Assembly: GCA_913058135.1 (NCBI GenBank)
Contig: CAJXPR010000016.1
Coordinates: 1 to 46,697 of the forward strand
DNA: 46,697 nt
DNA from: an uncultured Gammaproteobacteria bacterium
GTDB taxonomy: Bacteria > Pseudomonadota > Gammaproteobacteria > Pseudomonadales > Pseudohongiellaceae
Reading direction: 5' to 3'
This document shows, piece by piece, positions 3,990 to 33,085 of this stretch. Under the pieces are notes generated by a model. That model had not been told where the DNA came from and did not search any database. It saw only the letters and a list, made by a program, of their open reading frames with translations. A program made the translations under genes and the position numbers. The stretch's first letter is position 1, and the number at the start of each line of letters is the position of its first letter.

Positions 3990-4433
3990 TTATTGCAGTT
4001 TGACAAAGCGGGCCTGCTGGTTGCGCACCAGCGTGCAGACCACATGGTAATCCGGTTGGCAGGACATTGACCTGACGATCGCGGTTTGCGGGCTGGTCAG
4101 CTGCACCATGACCTGCGCTACAACACCCTGATAGCGCACTTCCACAGTGCCACTGCTGCCATTTATCATACCTTCCCCAGCCTGCCATTCGATACCGGCC
4201 GGGCGCAGGGGTTCCAATCGGAAGTTTGTGCCTGAGGGCGATACCGACACGCTGAAATCGGTGTTTTCTGCTTGCCATTCACCTTGCCAGGTATCCGGGT
4301 CAGTGAGCTCGTCTGCCCCAGCACTGCTGGCCAGTGCGGCGCCCAGCATCAGCGCGGCGAGCAGGCCGGTGGCGCACCGACCGATGGGAGGCAAAGAGGC
4401 AGAATAGGGGGCGCTTAATCTGGGATCGGTCAT
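3990..4433 (-). CDS. Small exported hypothetical protein
   Basis: This is a 147-residue protein. A hydrophobic stretch at about 22-38 (GLLAALMLGAALASSAGA) ends in a likely signal-peptidase I site before DELTDPDTWQGEW. The mature part of about 105 residues is predicted periplasmic, is rich in beta-type sequence and contains two cysteines (in SCQPDYHVVC) that could form a disulfide. I do not recognise a family. An extended -10 promoter at 4474-4482 fits the ATG at 4433. It is convergent with the protease gene, so it stands alone as a transcription unit. Confidence 0.7.
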   Translation of the reverse strand: MTDPRLSAPYSASLPPIGRCATGLLAALMLGAALASSAGADELTDPDTWQGEWQAENTDFSVSVSPSGTNFRLEPLRPAGIEWQAGEGMINGSSGTVEVRYQGVVAQVMVQLTSPQTAIVRSMSCQPDYHVVCTLVRNQQARFVKLQ

Positions 4434-4473
4434 GGTGATAGCTTACCTGTCGCAGTTGGCCGATGGAGCACGG

Positions 4474-4482
4474 AGTATAACA
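4474..4482 (-). promoter_or_regulatory. Extended -10 promoter for the 4433 gene
   Basis: Read on the minus strand, 4482-4474 is TGTTATACT, a TGn-extended -10 box with five of six consensus bases. The -35 region is poor (TTAGTA), as expected for extended -10 promoters. Transcription would start near 4467, about 35 bases before the ATG at 4433. Confidence 0.5.
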
Positions 4483-4575
4483 GTTATTCGGGCAGATACT
4501 AAAAGCACCCCGGGGCTGGGGCCGCGCAGCTATACGTTATTGCCTTGCGAGTGGCATGTCTTTGCGCACCGGCCT

Positions 4576-4614
4576 AAAAAAAGGCCAGGATGATCTTTGG
4601 GGATCGTCCTGGCC
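4576..4614 (-). terminator. Strong minus-strand intrinsic terminator
   Basis: A 13-pair stem with one G-T pair (4602-4614 with 4583-4595) and a 6-base loop is followed, reading leftward, by seven T (4582-4576). No minus-strand gene ends here: the next one to the right starts beyond oxyR, and the gene to the left begins only at 4433. It therefore ends some non-coding transcript that begins upstream of oxyR. Confidence 0.85.
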
Positions 4615-4697
4615 AAGAGGGAGCGTACAATCTGGATCCGTACACCAGTCAAACCTACCTTCCTGCGAGCGATGACGGGTCATCAGGGTTCGCGATG
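4576..4697 (-). ncRNA. Candidate small RNA divergent from oxyR (OxyS-like position)
   Basis: The unit reads away from oxyR. On the minus strand it has a -35-like TTTATC (4731-4726), a 17-base spacer, a -10 TATATT (4708-4703), a start near 4697 and the strong terminator ending at 4576, giving an RNA of about 120 bases. E. coli OxyS, made divergently from oxyR and activated by OxyR, is 109 bases. The sequence has a small 5' hairpin (GATGA, CCCG loop, TCATC, 4684-4671), a purine-rich middle, and the terminator stem. Hfq, the usual partner of such RNAs, is encoded at 32810. The only open frame (about 48 codons from an ATG near 4685) runs through the terminator and has no ribosome site. Sequence similarity to OxyS is not visible; the call rests on position and signals. 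Confidence 0.45.
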
Positions 4698-4702
4698 TCT
4701 GC

Positions 4703-4764
4703 AATATAGGCTAATGGGCTGAATAGATAAAATGCATTAAATGTATTAAAGTGATATGCATATT
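4703..4764. promoter_or_regulatory. oxyR divergent promoter region with a candidate OxyR half-site
   Basis: ATAGATAAAATGCAT (4723-4737) matches the OxyR half-site pattern ATAG-N-T-NNN-A-N-CTAT at ATAG, T, A and the final AT. It covers the poor -35 of the leftward promoter, where an activating regulator is expected. The second half-site (4745-4759) matches only weakly. For oxyR itself a loose -35 (TTAAAT, 4737-4742) and -10 (CATATT, 4759-4764) are possible. This arrangement would let one site repress oxyR and activate the divergent RNA. Confidence 0.4.
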
Positions 4765-4818
4765 GTATCGATCGTCAGGATCCGAAATCGCGTAAATCAG
4801 CCTTTATGGGGAGCCGCA

Positions 4819-5721
4819 ATGAATCACTTACCCACCACCAAGCAACTGCGGTATTTTGTTGCGCTTGAGCAGTATGAGCACTTTGGTAAAGCTGCAGAAT
4901 CCTGTTTCGTTTCGCAACCGGCGTTCAGTGTTGCCATCAAGGAGCTGGAGAATATGCTTAATATTCAGCTGGTTGATCGCACCAACAAAAACGTCACGGT
5001 CACCAGCCTGGGCCGCGATATCGCCCGCCAGGCGCGCGTGGTGCTGCGGGATCTCGAAGACATGGTCGATATCGCGCGCGGCAATCAGGCGCCGTTGACC
5101 GGCCAGCTGAAGTTGGGAGTGATCCCCACCATTGCTCCGTTTTTATTGCCCAAGCTACTGCCCGCTTTGCGCGAGTCCTATCCCGAGCTTAAGCTTTATC
5201 TGAAAGAGGATCTGACTGATCGGGTTTATGAGCGCCTGATGGACGGCGAGCTCGATCTCATTTTGATTGCCTTGCCCTACGAACTGCGCAATGTCACGGA
5301 TATGCCCCTGTTTGACGATCACTTTTTCCTGGCGCATCACCAGCACAGTGCTTTTGTTGACCCGGCGCGCTACAACATGAACGCGCTGCCCACGGACAGT
5401 ATTCTGTTGCTTGAAGACGGGCACTGCCTGCGCGACCATGCCCTGTCTGCCTGCAATATAAAGAACGCTGACAAGGTCAGCAGTATTACTGCTACCAGCC
5501 TGTTGACGCTGGTGCAGATGGTGGACGCTGACCTGGGCATCACGTACTTGCCGGAAATGGCGGTCAAGTCGTCGCTATTGACGAACACACGGATAGAAAC
5601 CATTGCCATGGACGAGCGTAGCTACCGCCAGATTGGTCTGGTCTGGCGCAAAGCCAGCACACGGCGGGAAGAGTTCGAGATGCTGGGCAATTTCATCAAG
5701 CAACATTATCAGGCGGGTTGA
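4819..5721 (+). CDS. oxyR: Hydrogen-peroxide-sensing regulator OxyR (LysR family)
   Basis: This 300-residue cytoplasmic regulator has an N-terminal LysR helix-turn-helix (about 10-60, with HFGKAAESCFVSQPAFS) and a C-terminal sensor domain. The redox pair is present: C203 in LEDGHCLRD and C212, with the same eight-residue spacing as C199 and C208 of E. coli OxyR. These form a disulfide on peroxide and switch on catalase, peroxiredoxin and iron-handling genes. The ATG at 4819 is chosen because GGGGAG lies 6 bases upstream and because LysR proteins begin just before the helix-turn-helix; an upstream GTG/ATG at 4756 would add an unrelated leader. No catalase or ahp gene lies in the window. The upstream region has a possible OxyR site and a divergent RNA. 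Confidence 0.92.
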   Translation: MNHLPTTKQLRYFVALEQYEHFGKAAESCFVSQPAFSVAIKELENMLNIQLVDRTNKNVTVTSLGRDIARQARVVLRDLEDMVDIARGNQAPLTGQLKLGVIPTIAPFLLPKLLPALRESYPELKLYLKEDLTDRVYERLMDGELDLILIALPYELRNVTDMPLFDDHFFLAHHQHSAFVDPARYNMNALPTDSILLLEDGHCLRDHALSACNIKNADKVSSITATSLLTLVQMVDADLGITYLPEMAVKSSLLTNTRIETIAMDERSYRQIGLVWRKASTRREEFEMLGNFIKQHYQAG

Positions 5722-5834: not shown

Positions 5835-7826
5835 ATGAGTATCCAACTGAGTTTCATCAAAGTCCTGGCAACAGTGACCAGCCGGGCAGTCGGTGCCCCG
5901 TTGGCGCTGGTGGCAATTGTGGCGACGGGCCTGGTCGGTACCGTTACCGCCAGCGATTCCGATCCGGCTGCTGCGATGACCGTGCGCGCCTCCGATTTCA
6001 CCCTGATCGACCAGCACGGCAAGGCTTTCAGCCTGCACTACCATGAACAGGCACCGGCCATCGTGCTGATGGGGCATCGCAACGGATCGGCCGCGGTAGA
6101 TGTCGCGGATGAGCTGAGCGAGCGGTGGGCTGCGCAGGGTGTGGTGTTTGCACTGGTGAATGCGGCGCCCACAGAGTCGCGCGCAGACATTCTGGCCGAT
6201 GCCCGGCAGAGGGGTCTGGAATTGCCGGTGTTAAAAGATGACGCGGGTCTGGTGACTGAGACCCTGGCATTGAACCATGTCGCCGAGACGCTGGTGATCG
6301 AGCCCGGCCGCTGGCAGATCGTTTATCGCGGTCCGGCCGATCATGCCGCATTTGGTGCAACCCTGCAGTCCTTGCTGGATGGCGAGCGCGTTGAAGCGAC
6401 GGCGCAGGCAATGCCCGCTGACGCGGAACAGCTGCCGCGTCGAGCGGCCATCGCAAACATGTCAGAAACCCTGTACAGCGACACCATCGCGCCGCTGCTG
6501 GTTGAAAAGTGTGCCGATTGCCACCGGCCCGGCGGCATCGGGCCGTGGGCGATGACCAATCACGCAATGATTCAGGGTTTCTCCCCGATGATCCGCGAAA
6601 CCATTCTGACCAAGCGTATGCCGCCCTGGCATGCTGATCCGGAGATTGGCGAGTTTCTGCATGACCTTAGCCTGGATGTTGATGAGGCCAGACAACTGGT
6701 ATCCTGGATTGATGCCGGAGCACCGCGCGGCACCGGGGAAGACCCGCTGATGGCAGTGGCGGCTCAGGATACCCAGTGGGAACTGGGTGAGCCTGATCTG
6801 GTGGTGACCCTGCCGACTTTCGACATCCCCGCCACCGGGACCCTGGACTACCAGTTTTTCGAAGTGAAAAACCCGCTGGAGCATGATGTCTGGGTTCGAG
6901 CTGTGCAAATTGCACCCGGCGACAGACAGGTTGTCCATCATGCCATTGCCACCTTCGGCGATAGCTCCAATACGGCAGGCCAGTCGGACAGCGGTGAGTC
7001 CCTGTTCCAGCCGCAGCTGATGACATTTGTCCCTGGCAATGAGACCTATATCTATCCCGAGAACACCGGCGTCTATGTGCCGGCCGGCACCTCATTCTAT
7101 ACGCAGATGCACTACACTACGTATGGCAAGGCCACCAGCGACCAGACCCAGATCGGCCTGTACTTCAGTGACGAAGCACCGGAACATGTGTTGCAGCACT
7201 TCTCCATCCTGAATCCCGAGTTGCGGATCCCCCAGGGTGCGGCGGAACACGAGGAAGCAGCGTATTACCAGTTCCAGCGGGATGCCGTCATTTATAGCCT
7301 GTTCCCGCACGCACACTATCGTGGGCGGGCTTCGGAGTTTGCCATCCGTTACCCTGACGGGCGCGAGGAAGTGGTGTTGTCGGTGCCGAACTATGATTTC
7401 AACTGGCAGCGCTACTTCCAGTTCAAGGAACCGATTGAGGCGCCAGCTGGCACCTTCGTTATCCATCGCACAGTGTATGACAACTCGACGGCTAATCTGA
7501 GCAACCCTGATCCATCGGTTGACGTCAGGTTTGGTGAACAGACCTGGGAAGAAATGCTCTATGGCGGTATTTCCTTCCGCTACGCAGAGCCCGGTGAAAA
7601 CGACTTTGAGGTCAACGAGGATGATTACCTGGCGGCGCTGGCCATGGGGTTCATGGATGTAAACATGGATGGCAAGGTTGCCCTTGATGAAATGCCGGAA
7701 CGGTCACGGCAGGCGCTGGCGCTGCCATTTACCATCATGGATCGCAACAAGACCATGGGCCTGGAGTTTCCTGAATTCCGCGAGTTCATGGTGCAAAGCA
7801 ACATGATGAGCCGAGACGCTTTTTAA
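5835..7826 (+). CDS. Redoxin-fold / cytochrome c / copper monooxygenase / EF-hand fusion
   Basis: This 663-residue exported protein has a hydrophobic N-terminus at about 20-38. Residues 47-200 resemble a redoxin fold, but the position of the usual redox cysteine reads GHRNGSAA. A haem c motif C226-A-D-C229-H230 follows, with M in KRMPPWHAD as a possible axial ligand. Residues 330-600 resemble the copper type II ascorbate-dependent monooxygenase fold (PHM/DBH). All six expected copper ligands can be placed: H368, H369 and H426 for the first copper; H492, H494 and M574 for the second. Two EF-hand loops end the protein: DVNMDGKVALDE (608-619) and DRNKTMGLEFPE. The only cysteines are the two haem ones. 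The ATG at 5835 has GGAGTGAG upstream. The likely role is periplasmic hydroxylation fed by the haem; the substrate is unknown. Confidence 0.82.
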   Translation: MSIQLSFIKVLATVTSRAVGAPLALVAIVATGLVGTVTASDSDPAAAMTVRASDFTLIDQHGKAFSLHYHEQAPAIVLMGHRNGSAAVDVADELSERWAAQGVVFALVNAAPTESRADILADARQRGLELPVLKDDAGLVTETLALNHVAETLVIEPGRWQIVYRGPADHAAFGATLQSLLDGERVEATAQAMPADAEQLPRRAAIANMSETLYSDTIAPLLVEKCADCHRPGGIGPWAMTNHAMIQGFSPMIRETILTKRMPPWHADPEIGEFLHDLSLDVDEARQLVSWIDAGAPRGTGEDPLMAVAAQDTQWELGEPDLVVTLPTFDIPATGTLDYQFFEVKNPLEHDVWVRAVQIAPGDRQVVHHAIATFGDSSNTAGQSDSGESLFQPQLMTFVPGNETYIYPENTGVYVPAGTSFYTQMHYTTYGKATSDQTQIGLYFSDEAPEHVLQHFSILNPELRIPQGAAEHEEAAYYQFQRDAVIYSLFPHAHYRGRASEFAIRYPDGREEVVLSVPNYDFNWQRYFQFKEPIEAPAGTFVIHRTVYDNSTANLSNPDPSVDVRFGEQTWEEMLYGGISFRYAEPGENDFEVNEDDYLAALAMGFMDVNMDGKVALDEMPERSRQALALPFTIMDRNKTMGLEFPEFREFMVQSNMMSRDAF

Positions 7827-32809: not shown

Positions 32810-33085
32810 ATGTCAAAAGGGCATTCCCTACAAGACCCTTTCCTGAATGTGCTGCGGAAAGAGCGCATCCCGGTTTCCATCTACCTGGTCAGCGGTATCA
32901 AGCTGCAGGGGCAGATCGAGTCATTCGACCAGTTTGTCATTTTGTTGAAGAACGCGGTTAACCAGATGGTTTACAAGCACGCAATTTCCACTGTTGTTCC
33001 GGCGCGTACGGTGAAGATCCCGACCACGAACGGCGGTGAATTCACTCACGAAGACGATGAGTCTGCACCAGGTAATATGGCCTGA
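32810..33085 (+). CDS. hfq: RNA chaperone Hfq
   Basis: This is a 91-residue Sm-like protein that forms hexamers and pairs small RNAs with messages. The Sm1 region [21 protein letters not shown] and Sm2 segment [11 protein letters not shown] are intact, with the RNA-binding Q at position 8 and the KH pair. The acidic C-terminal tail is short ([11 protein letters not shown]), as in Pseudomonas, rather than the long tail of E. coli. It is placed between miaA and hflX. AAGGAG lies 7 bases before the ATG. Confidence 0.97.

Follow-up and report, generated by a model that had tools for sequence, protein, structure and literature searches.

OxyS is among the best-studied stress RNAs. To our knowledge, none of SorX, PrrF and NfiS is divergent from oxyR. 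An excerpt of one study reports 603 potential OxyS homologues from ten enterobacterial genera, all located beside oxyR (PMC5793797), and a passage of a 2013 article leaves the existence of an OxyR–OxyS system in Shewanella undecided (PMC3575234). Among the literature matches listed (titles and abstract openings, with mainly open-access coverage), no oxyR-divergent small RNA outside the enterics was recognised. Likewise, no small RNAs of Pseudohongiella were recognised among the titles and abstract openings listed. The locus described here lies in the window, the whole stretch of 46,697 nucleotides that was analysed, which is contig 16 of a 3.78-Mb assembly from a Pseudohongiella-type gammaproteobacterium. 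The region divergent from oxyR probably holds an independent small regulatory RNA gene that is activated by OxyR and whose product pairs with mRNAs under peroxide stress. Comparison with related loci establishes, at the level of sequence, a predicted gene unit with its promoter architecture, a covarying terminator and an operator that is kin to those of peroxide-defence promoters.

The oxyR locus and the predicted RNA

The oxyR gene (4819–5721, plus strand) encodes a LysR-family protein (PF00126 and PF03466) for which NF008361 (OxyR, E = 4.5e-72) is still the best NCBIfam model, although its 242.9 bits fall under the curated cut-off of 329. A C-X8-C pair (C203 and C212 in CLRDHALSAC), by analogy the putative redox pair, is kept in all 16 OxyR orthologues compared (L001–L016). 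Pseudohongiella titles are carried by four of the 18 related oxyR loci from named genomes, the nearest locus (96% identity) among them, and on this basis the window is assigned to Pseudohongiella or its immediate neighbourhood. One further record (L034) is titled as a Rhodoferax sp. OV413 MAG, yet holds a Pseudohongiella-type oxyR (83%), and this title is probably wrong. The gene for Hfq, which the earlier note had placed in the same window, is found at 32810–33085 (PF17209, E = 3.4e-29). On its other flank, oxyR adjoins a 663-aa ORF (5835–7823, plus strand) that by eye begins like a redoxin and contains a CxxCH haem motif; at E 0.001 it is matched by neither Pfam nor NCBIfam, and a similar ORF start is seen on that flank of oxyR in L005, L006, L008, L012 and L014.

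Leftward from oxyR, on the minus strand, the order of features is operator, weak −35, −10, predicted RNA, hairpin and T7. The predicted RNA (4576–4696, minus strand) is ~121 nt long, with a 5′ end estimated from the promoter and a 3′ end set by the terminator. The latter comprises a stem-loop with the loop CCCAAA (4583–4614) and a T7 tract (4576–4582); read on the minus strand from 4614 to 4576, it runs GGCCAGGA-C-GATC-CCCAAA-GATC-A-TCCTGGCC, then T7. The RNAfold structure has 12 pairs, interrupted by a single C/A mismatch (−21.4 kcal/mol, z −5.6), and this stability is matched by 0 of 200 mononucleotide shuffles in which the last 8 nt were fixed. The minus-strand terminator with seven T that the earlier note saw ending at 4576 is therefore present, with a stem of 12 pairs instead of the 13 counted there. 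The same note held that there is no gene for it to terminate, in agreement with which no minus-strand ORF of at least 80 aa ends near the terminator. Three short minus-strand frames (23, 40 and 55 aa) cross the hairpin, and the nearest leftward ORF starts 143 nt beyond, at 4433. This 147-aa ORF (3990–4433, minus strand, from the ORF list) is the next gene leftward, lies outside the RNA unit and is unassigned to a family, as Pfam and NCBIfam gave no match at E 0.001. By eye, its start resembles a signal peptide, and ORFs resembling it come after the RNA in several relatives. Simple scans of the window for terminators and promoters listed neither the hairpin nor the promoter, presumably because of the interrupted stem and the poor −35.

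Taken as a whole, the 121-nt RNA is predicted to have no more than moderate structure (z −2.0, with 7 of 200 dinucleotide shuffles reaching its stability), and a 141-nt version gives a similar value (z −2.1). Two conserved motifs of the RNA are AGGAAGGT (4657–4664, minus strand; alignments A1, A4 and A6) and, just before the hairpin, CCCTCTT (4615–4621, minus strand), a possible target contact that is conserved as CCCTC or CCCTT in A6. The second is unpaired in the 141-nt fold; in the 121-nt fold it is unpaired in the centroid and partly paired in the minimum-free-energy (MFE) structure, where AGGAAGGT supplies part of the pairing. Among the MFE folds of the 24 RNAs described below, most of those from the window's genus show CCCTCTT in at least partial pairing, often with AGGAAGG, and several RNAs of a second genus (g5) leave it open. 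Because of this pairing, CCCTCTT was dropped as a plainly unpaired seed. Since AGGAAGG and CCCUC partly pair together in many MFE folds, they may form a second helix instead.

The promoter proposed in the earlier note, a −10 of TATATT with a poor −35 at 17 bases, is present in the sequence: TATATT (4703–4708, minus strand; TAnnnT in relatives) stands 17 nt from the −35-like hexamer TTTATC (4726–4731, minus strand), at which alignment A3 has a conserved block, CATTTTATC. This alignment was built without L039, L042, L044 and L045, and a CATTTTAT-like block was not seen in L042, L044 and L045. Abutting the −35 is an OxyR-type operator (4732–4768, minus strand; 55.7 bits with R1, an operator model of 69 nt and 21 sequences without structure). 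The earlier note had supposed an OxyR half-site covering the −35; the OxyR-like element is there, and it is not a half-site but a four-element site of 37 bp. Such a site next to the −35 is the arrangement of the OxyR-activated promoter class.

The window operator agrees only modestly with the E. coli OxyR consensus. In the 20-position form of the consensus that we assumed for scoring, the operator reaches 13/20, which is tied best (two places) of 46,661 places in the window, and it is the best or tied best place, in the same register, at all 16 loci L001–L016. Against the published 16-position consensus (PMC5720770), it scores 11/16, and since this is reached at five places in the window, the single match is weak; 10 of 200 shuffles of the 200-bp upstream stretch reach it as well. 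Across 26 loci, the 16-position scores are 10–13/16 and individually weak, being no better than chance in L005, L010, L012, L016 and L071, and in L014 and L016 the best match sits in another register. P. aeruginosa OxyR sites score 10–13 in rows of a table in the same paper (PMC5720770).

Conservation and covariation in three genera

The census covered 29 genomes with an OxyR at 77–100% identity, 14 from the window's genus (g1), 14 from g5 and one from a third genus (g7). The loci of g1 and g7, one g5 locus and the last three g5 genomes were reached through the OxyR protein, and ten g5 loci through the operator model, which is biased towards genomes whose operator is good; of the last three g5 genomes, one has the RNA and two are without it. 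In G006, a fifteenth g1 genome (72% complete), such an OxyR was not found at E up to 1e-60. A terminated RNA is predicted at the same place in 25 of the 29 genomes (g1, 12/14; g5, 12/14; g7, 1/1). In 24 of them, TAnnnT lies 18 or 19 nt past a CATTTTAT-like block and is followed by a run of at least six T, for RNAs of 74–125 nt. The 25th carrier, L009, has the operator and terminator, a poor −10 and no AGGAAGG. The hairpin and T run thus recur at orthologous loci of three genera, and 14 of 15 tested hairpins have z ≤ −3.0; the exception is L012 (z −0.2), and L010, which has no hairpin, stood outside this test. Conservation of the stem and promoter in relatives that share oxyR, the check called for in the earlier note, is borne out by the fixed spacing of the −10 and the terminated RNA in 24 of 29 genomes.

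The RNA has been lost in the remaining four genomes. In L012 the hairpin is decayed and the −10 mutated, L010 lacks the hairpin, and L139 and L140 lack both the RNA and the −10. All four keep an operator-like stretch, which in L139 and L140 is visible by eye, R1 having no match in these two genomes at E up to 1. They amount to natural knock-outs, with the RNA gone and the operator-like stretch in place. This retention would also suit a locus without any regulatory RNA, at which the operator has no role beyond oxyR autoregulation and the hairpin does no more than end stray transcription in the leftward direction. We regard such an arrangement as unlikely, as it is at odds with the spaced −10 and the T run being conserved together (24 of 29 genomes), with the conservation of AGGAAGG and CCCTC/CCCTT outside the hairpin, and with the use of the same promoter by peroxide-defence genes in other lineages.

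A regulated leader is also conceivable, the 147-aa gene being on the same strand with its start 143 nt past the terminator; transcripts would then stop at the hairpin as at an attenuator or read through into this gene. Between the terminator and the gene, however, lies a separate extended −10 (TGTTATACT, 4474–4482, minus strand), and TGnTATACT recurs at this place in L016 and in 13 of the 14 loci of the window's genus (L009 lacks it). Moreover, g5 keeps the RNA and hairpin and has a different next gene, which by eye encodes a membrane-like product of about 190 aa. The constant downstream gene of a cis leader or attenuator is thus not found, and because the downstream genes differ in two genera, the RNA is not expected to be the leader of its neighbour; an attenuator is quite improbable. 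It is very doubtful that the transcript instead encodes a peroxide-induced small protein, for although AGGAAGG resembles a Shine–Dalgarno sequence and might be its ribosome-binding site, with an ATG shortly past it in L011 and L013, and although 7 of 24 RNAs have a closed frame of at least 10 aa (one common to the close relatives L011, L013 and L014), 17 of 24 have no such frame, no frame is common to all, and the frame past AGGAAGG stops at once in L005, L008 and L014 and has no nearby start in L016 (by eye).

The reading as an independent RNA gene also draws on the hairpin itself, which covaries in the sequences aligned. Alignment A6, which was fitted to the structure of the RNA model R2 and leans to that structure, covers 25 of 26 loci (L010 has no match). 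In A6, 82.9% of cells are paired versus 68.6% in shuffled alignments, 51 cells carry double changes versus 17.3, and the covariation score is 0.401 versus 0.172; for each of these measures, 0 of 500 shuffles were as high. Changes on both sides occur at 11 of the 13 stem pairs, and sliding the partner by one to three columns lowers the pairing from 83% to 29–47%. By number of pair types, the alignment does not stand out (25 versus 22.0, 54 of 500 shuffles as high). For the unfitted alignment A2, RNAalifold predicts eight pairs, five of them with compensatory changes. L010 was left out of A1 and A2, and L009, L010, L012 and L015 were left out of A4, the alignment for R2 training (12 sequences). 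R2 finds the RNA in all 11 untrained g5 loci at E 5e-5 to 0.65, the higher of which overlap chance (L044 at 0.45 and L045 at 0.045 in the same search). It also matches L138, L009 and L012 and has no match in L010. Family-wide, R2 matches with E up to 1 occur in 68 of 99 genomes.

An operator shared with peroxide-defence promoters

In the window's own genome, R1 finds at E up to 10 only the window site (1.3e-14) and the ahpC promoter (0.48). The ahpC site, weak if taken alone at this E value, is on the same strand as ahpC and 86 nt ahead of it, with TATTAT 18 nt past the block (by eye), and the encoded AhpC scores 350.7 bits, over its cut-off of 272. Elsewhere in the family, where at least one R1 match at E up to 1 is present in 66 of 99 genomes, R1 reaches the promoters of two katG genes (L075 and L078) and of two redoxin-type peroxiredoxin genes (L070 and L079). 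TAnnnT stands 18 nt past the block at all four, and the peroxiredoxin site of L070 agrees with the published 16-position consensus (PMC5720770) at 15 of 16 positions. Outside the family, ten matches were taken at E up to 0.001 in an order sample of 293 genomes; six precede peroxiredoxin-, katG- or dps-like genes (named by eye), four of these six with TAnnnT at 18 nt, and four of the ten are placed otherwise. The same operator is thus found at known OxyR targets (ahpC, katG and peroxiredoxin). OxyR control of the predicted RNA, which the earlier note had suspected, is supported in sequence terms because the operator model also finds these promoters.

More distant relatives show what else can stand in this place. 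At nine loci (L039–L047, two of them titled Woeseiaceae), where OxyR is 58–63% identical, a dps- or peroxiredoxin-like gene is divergent from oxyR in eight (family checked for L040 and L041), and in six the dps or peroxiredoxin gene is preceded by the same CATTTTAT-like block and, 18 nt on, TAnnnT. The RNA therefore appears to occupy the slot of a peroxide-defence gene. In four loci of other genera (L018, L019, L020 and L022), the gene divergent from an OxyR-like gene is rubrerythrin-like (family confirmed for L018).

Proposed action of the RNA and comparison with OxyS

We infer that the RNA is transcribed and induced, that it uses Hfq, and that it acts by pairing through a seed stretch with target mRNAs. 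In the proposed mechanism, oxidised OxyR would bind the shared 37-bp operator and contact RNA polymerase at the promoter with its poor −35, thereby turning on an RNA of ~75–125 nt that ends at its own terminator (T7). The same operator would probably also let OxyR limit oxyR itself. Hfq would probably bind the U-tail of the RNA and help pairing, which most likely involves a conserved stretch, be it the C-rich terminator loop, CCCUC/CCCUU or AGGAAGGU, and would change the translation of targets during peroxide stress.

Candidate targets were sought in two ways. With one mismatch allowed, a 12-nt pattern complementary to the CCCTCTT region occurs at five places in the window's own genome versus 11 for a reversed control pattern; one of the five is the RNA gene itself, and the other four are not at the start of an ORF of >90 aa. 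Duplex energies against nusG and rpoS-like leaders gave no consistent signal, and none of the 18 rows stands out (for the best row, 26 of 200 shuffles were as low; long global duplexes were used). This second comparison was a poor one: of the eight nusG rows, three had the right leader, four took an rplK-like ORF and one a spurious start, and all rpoS matches were below the family cut-off. A search for nusG in the genome of the window gave no match. AGGAAGG had also prompted the idea of a CsrA sponge; we do not favour it, because by eye each RNA has about one copy of the motif.

E. coli OxyS and the predicted RNA are both divergent from oxyR, face away from it and end at their own terminator. 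The 5′ end lies 96 nt from the oxyR start for E. coli OxyS and about 123 nt for the predicted RNA, and the lengths are 117 nt as annotated (110 in Rfam) and 121 nt, respectively. An RNA of about 120 bases with the size and position of OxyS, as announced in the earlier note, is therefore what the locus predicts (24 RNAs, 74–125 nt), namely an RNA in the oxyR 5′ intergenic region that resembles the ~109-nt class with its own intrinsic terminator. Literal kinship with OxyS is not borne out. The OxyS family RF00035 has no match in the window at 4440–4830 (E up to 10) or in 15 relatives (E up to 1), whereas the E. coli gene, as positive control, scores 139.5 bits. R1 does not match the E. coli oxyS stretch, and R2 leaves the oxyS gene unmatched, with one weak match (E 0.057) beside it on the other strand. 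Based on the lack of an Rfam OxyS match, the predicted RNA is best regarded as an analogue of OxyS in position and probable control, and not as a member of its family.

Other described RNAs are no closer in sequence. Rfam gave nothing for the whole window at the gathering threshold and only sub-threshold, chance-like scores at a relaxed one. The best score for the predicted RNA is to SorX (RF02784), at a sub-threshold 15.7 bits versus a gathering threshold of 46.6, and it is probably due to chance, since E. coli DNA beside oxyS scores 15.1. SorX, PrrF and NfiS, small RNAs outside the enterics that are linked to oxidative stress, have no significant sequence match to the predicted RNA. Where other gammaproteobacteria have dps, peroxiredoxin or rubrerythrin divergent from oxyR, the slot is protein-coding, whereas here it holds a predicted RNA.

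On balance, we lean towards the view that, outside the Enterobacterales, the oxyR-divergent OxyR promoter, which drives dps or a peroxiredoxin in related lineages, was independently converted to make a regulatory RNA. A second, sequence-unrelated RNA in the same slot and under the same regulator would show that OxyR and a small RNA have been coupled on more than one occasion. If so, a peroxide-induced RNA beside oxyR would be a recurrent design and not an enteric peculiarity. The same promoter making Dps, a peroxiredoxin or an RNA, together with the four genomes in which the RNA was lost, forms a natural comparison set, and targets in common with OxyS would show the purpose of such an RNA. OxyS itself would, in that case, be one of two or more solutions reached separately.
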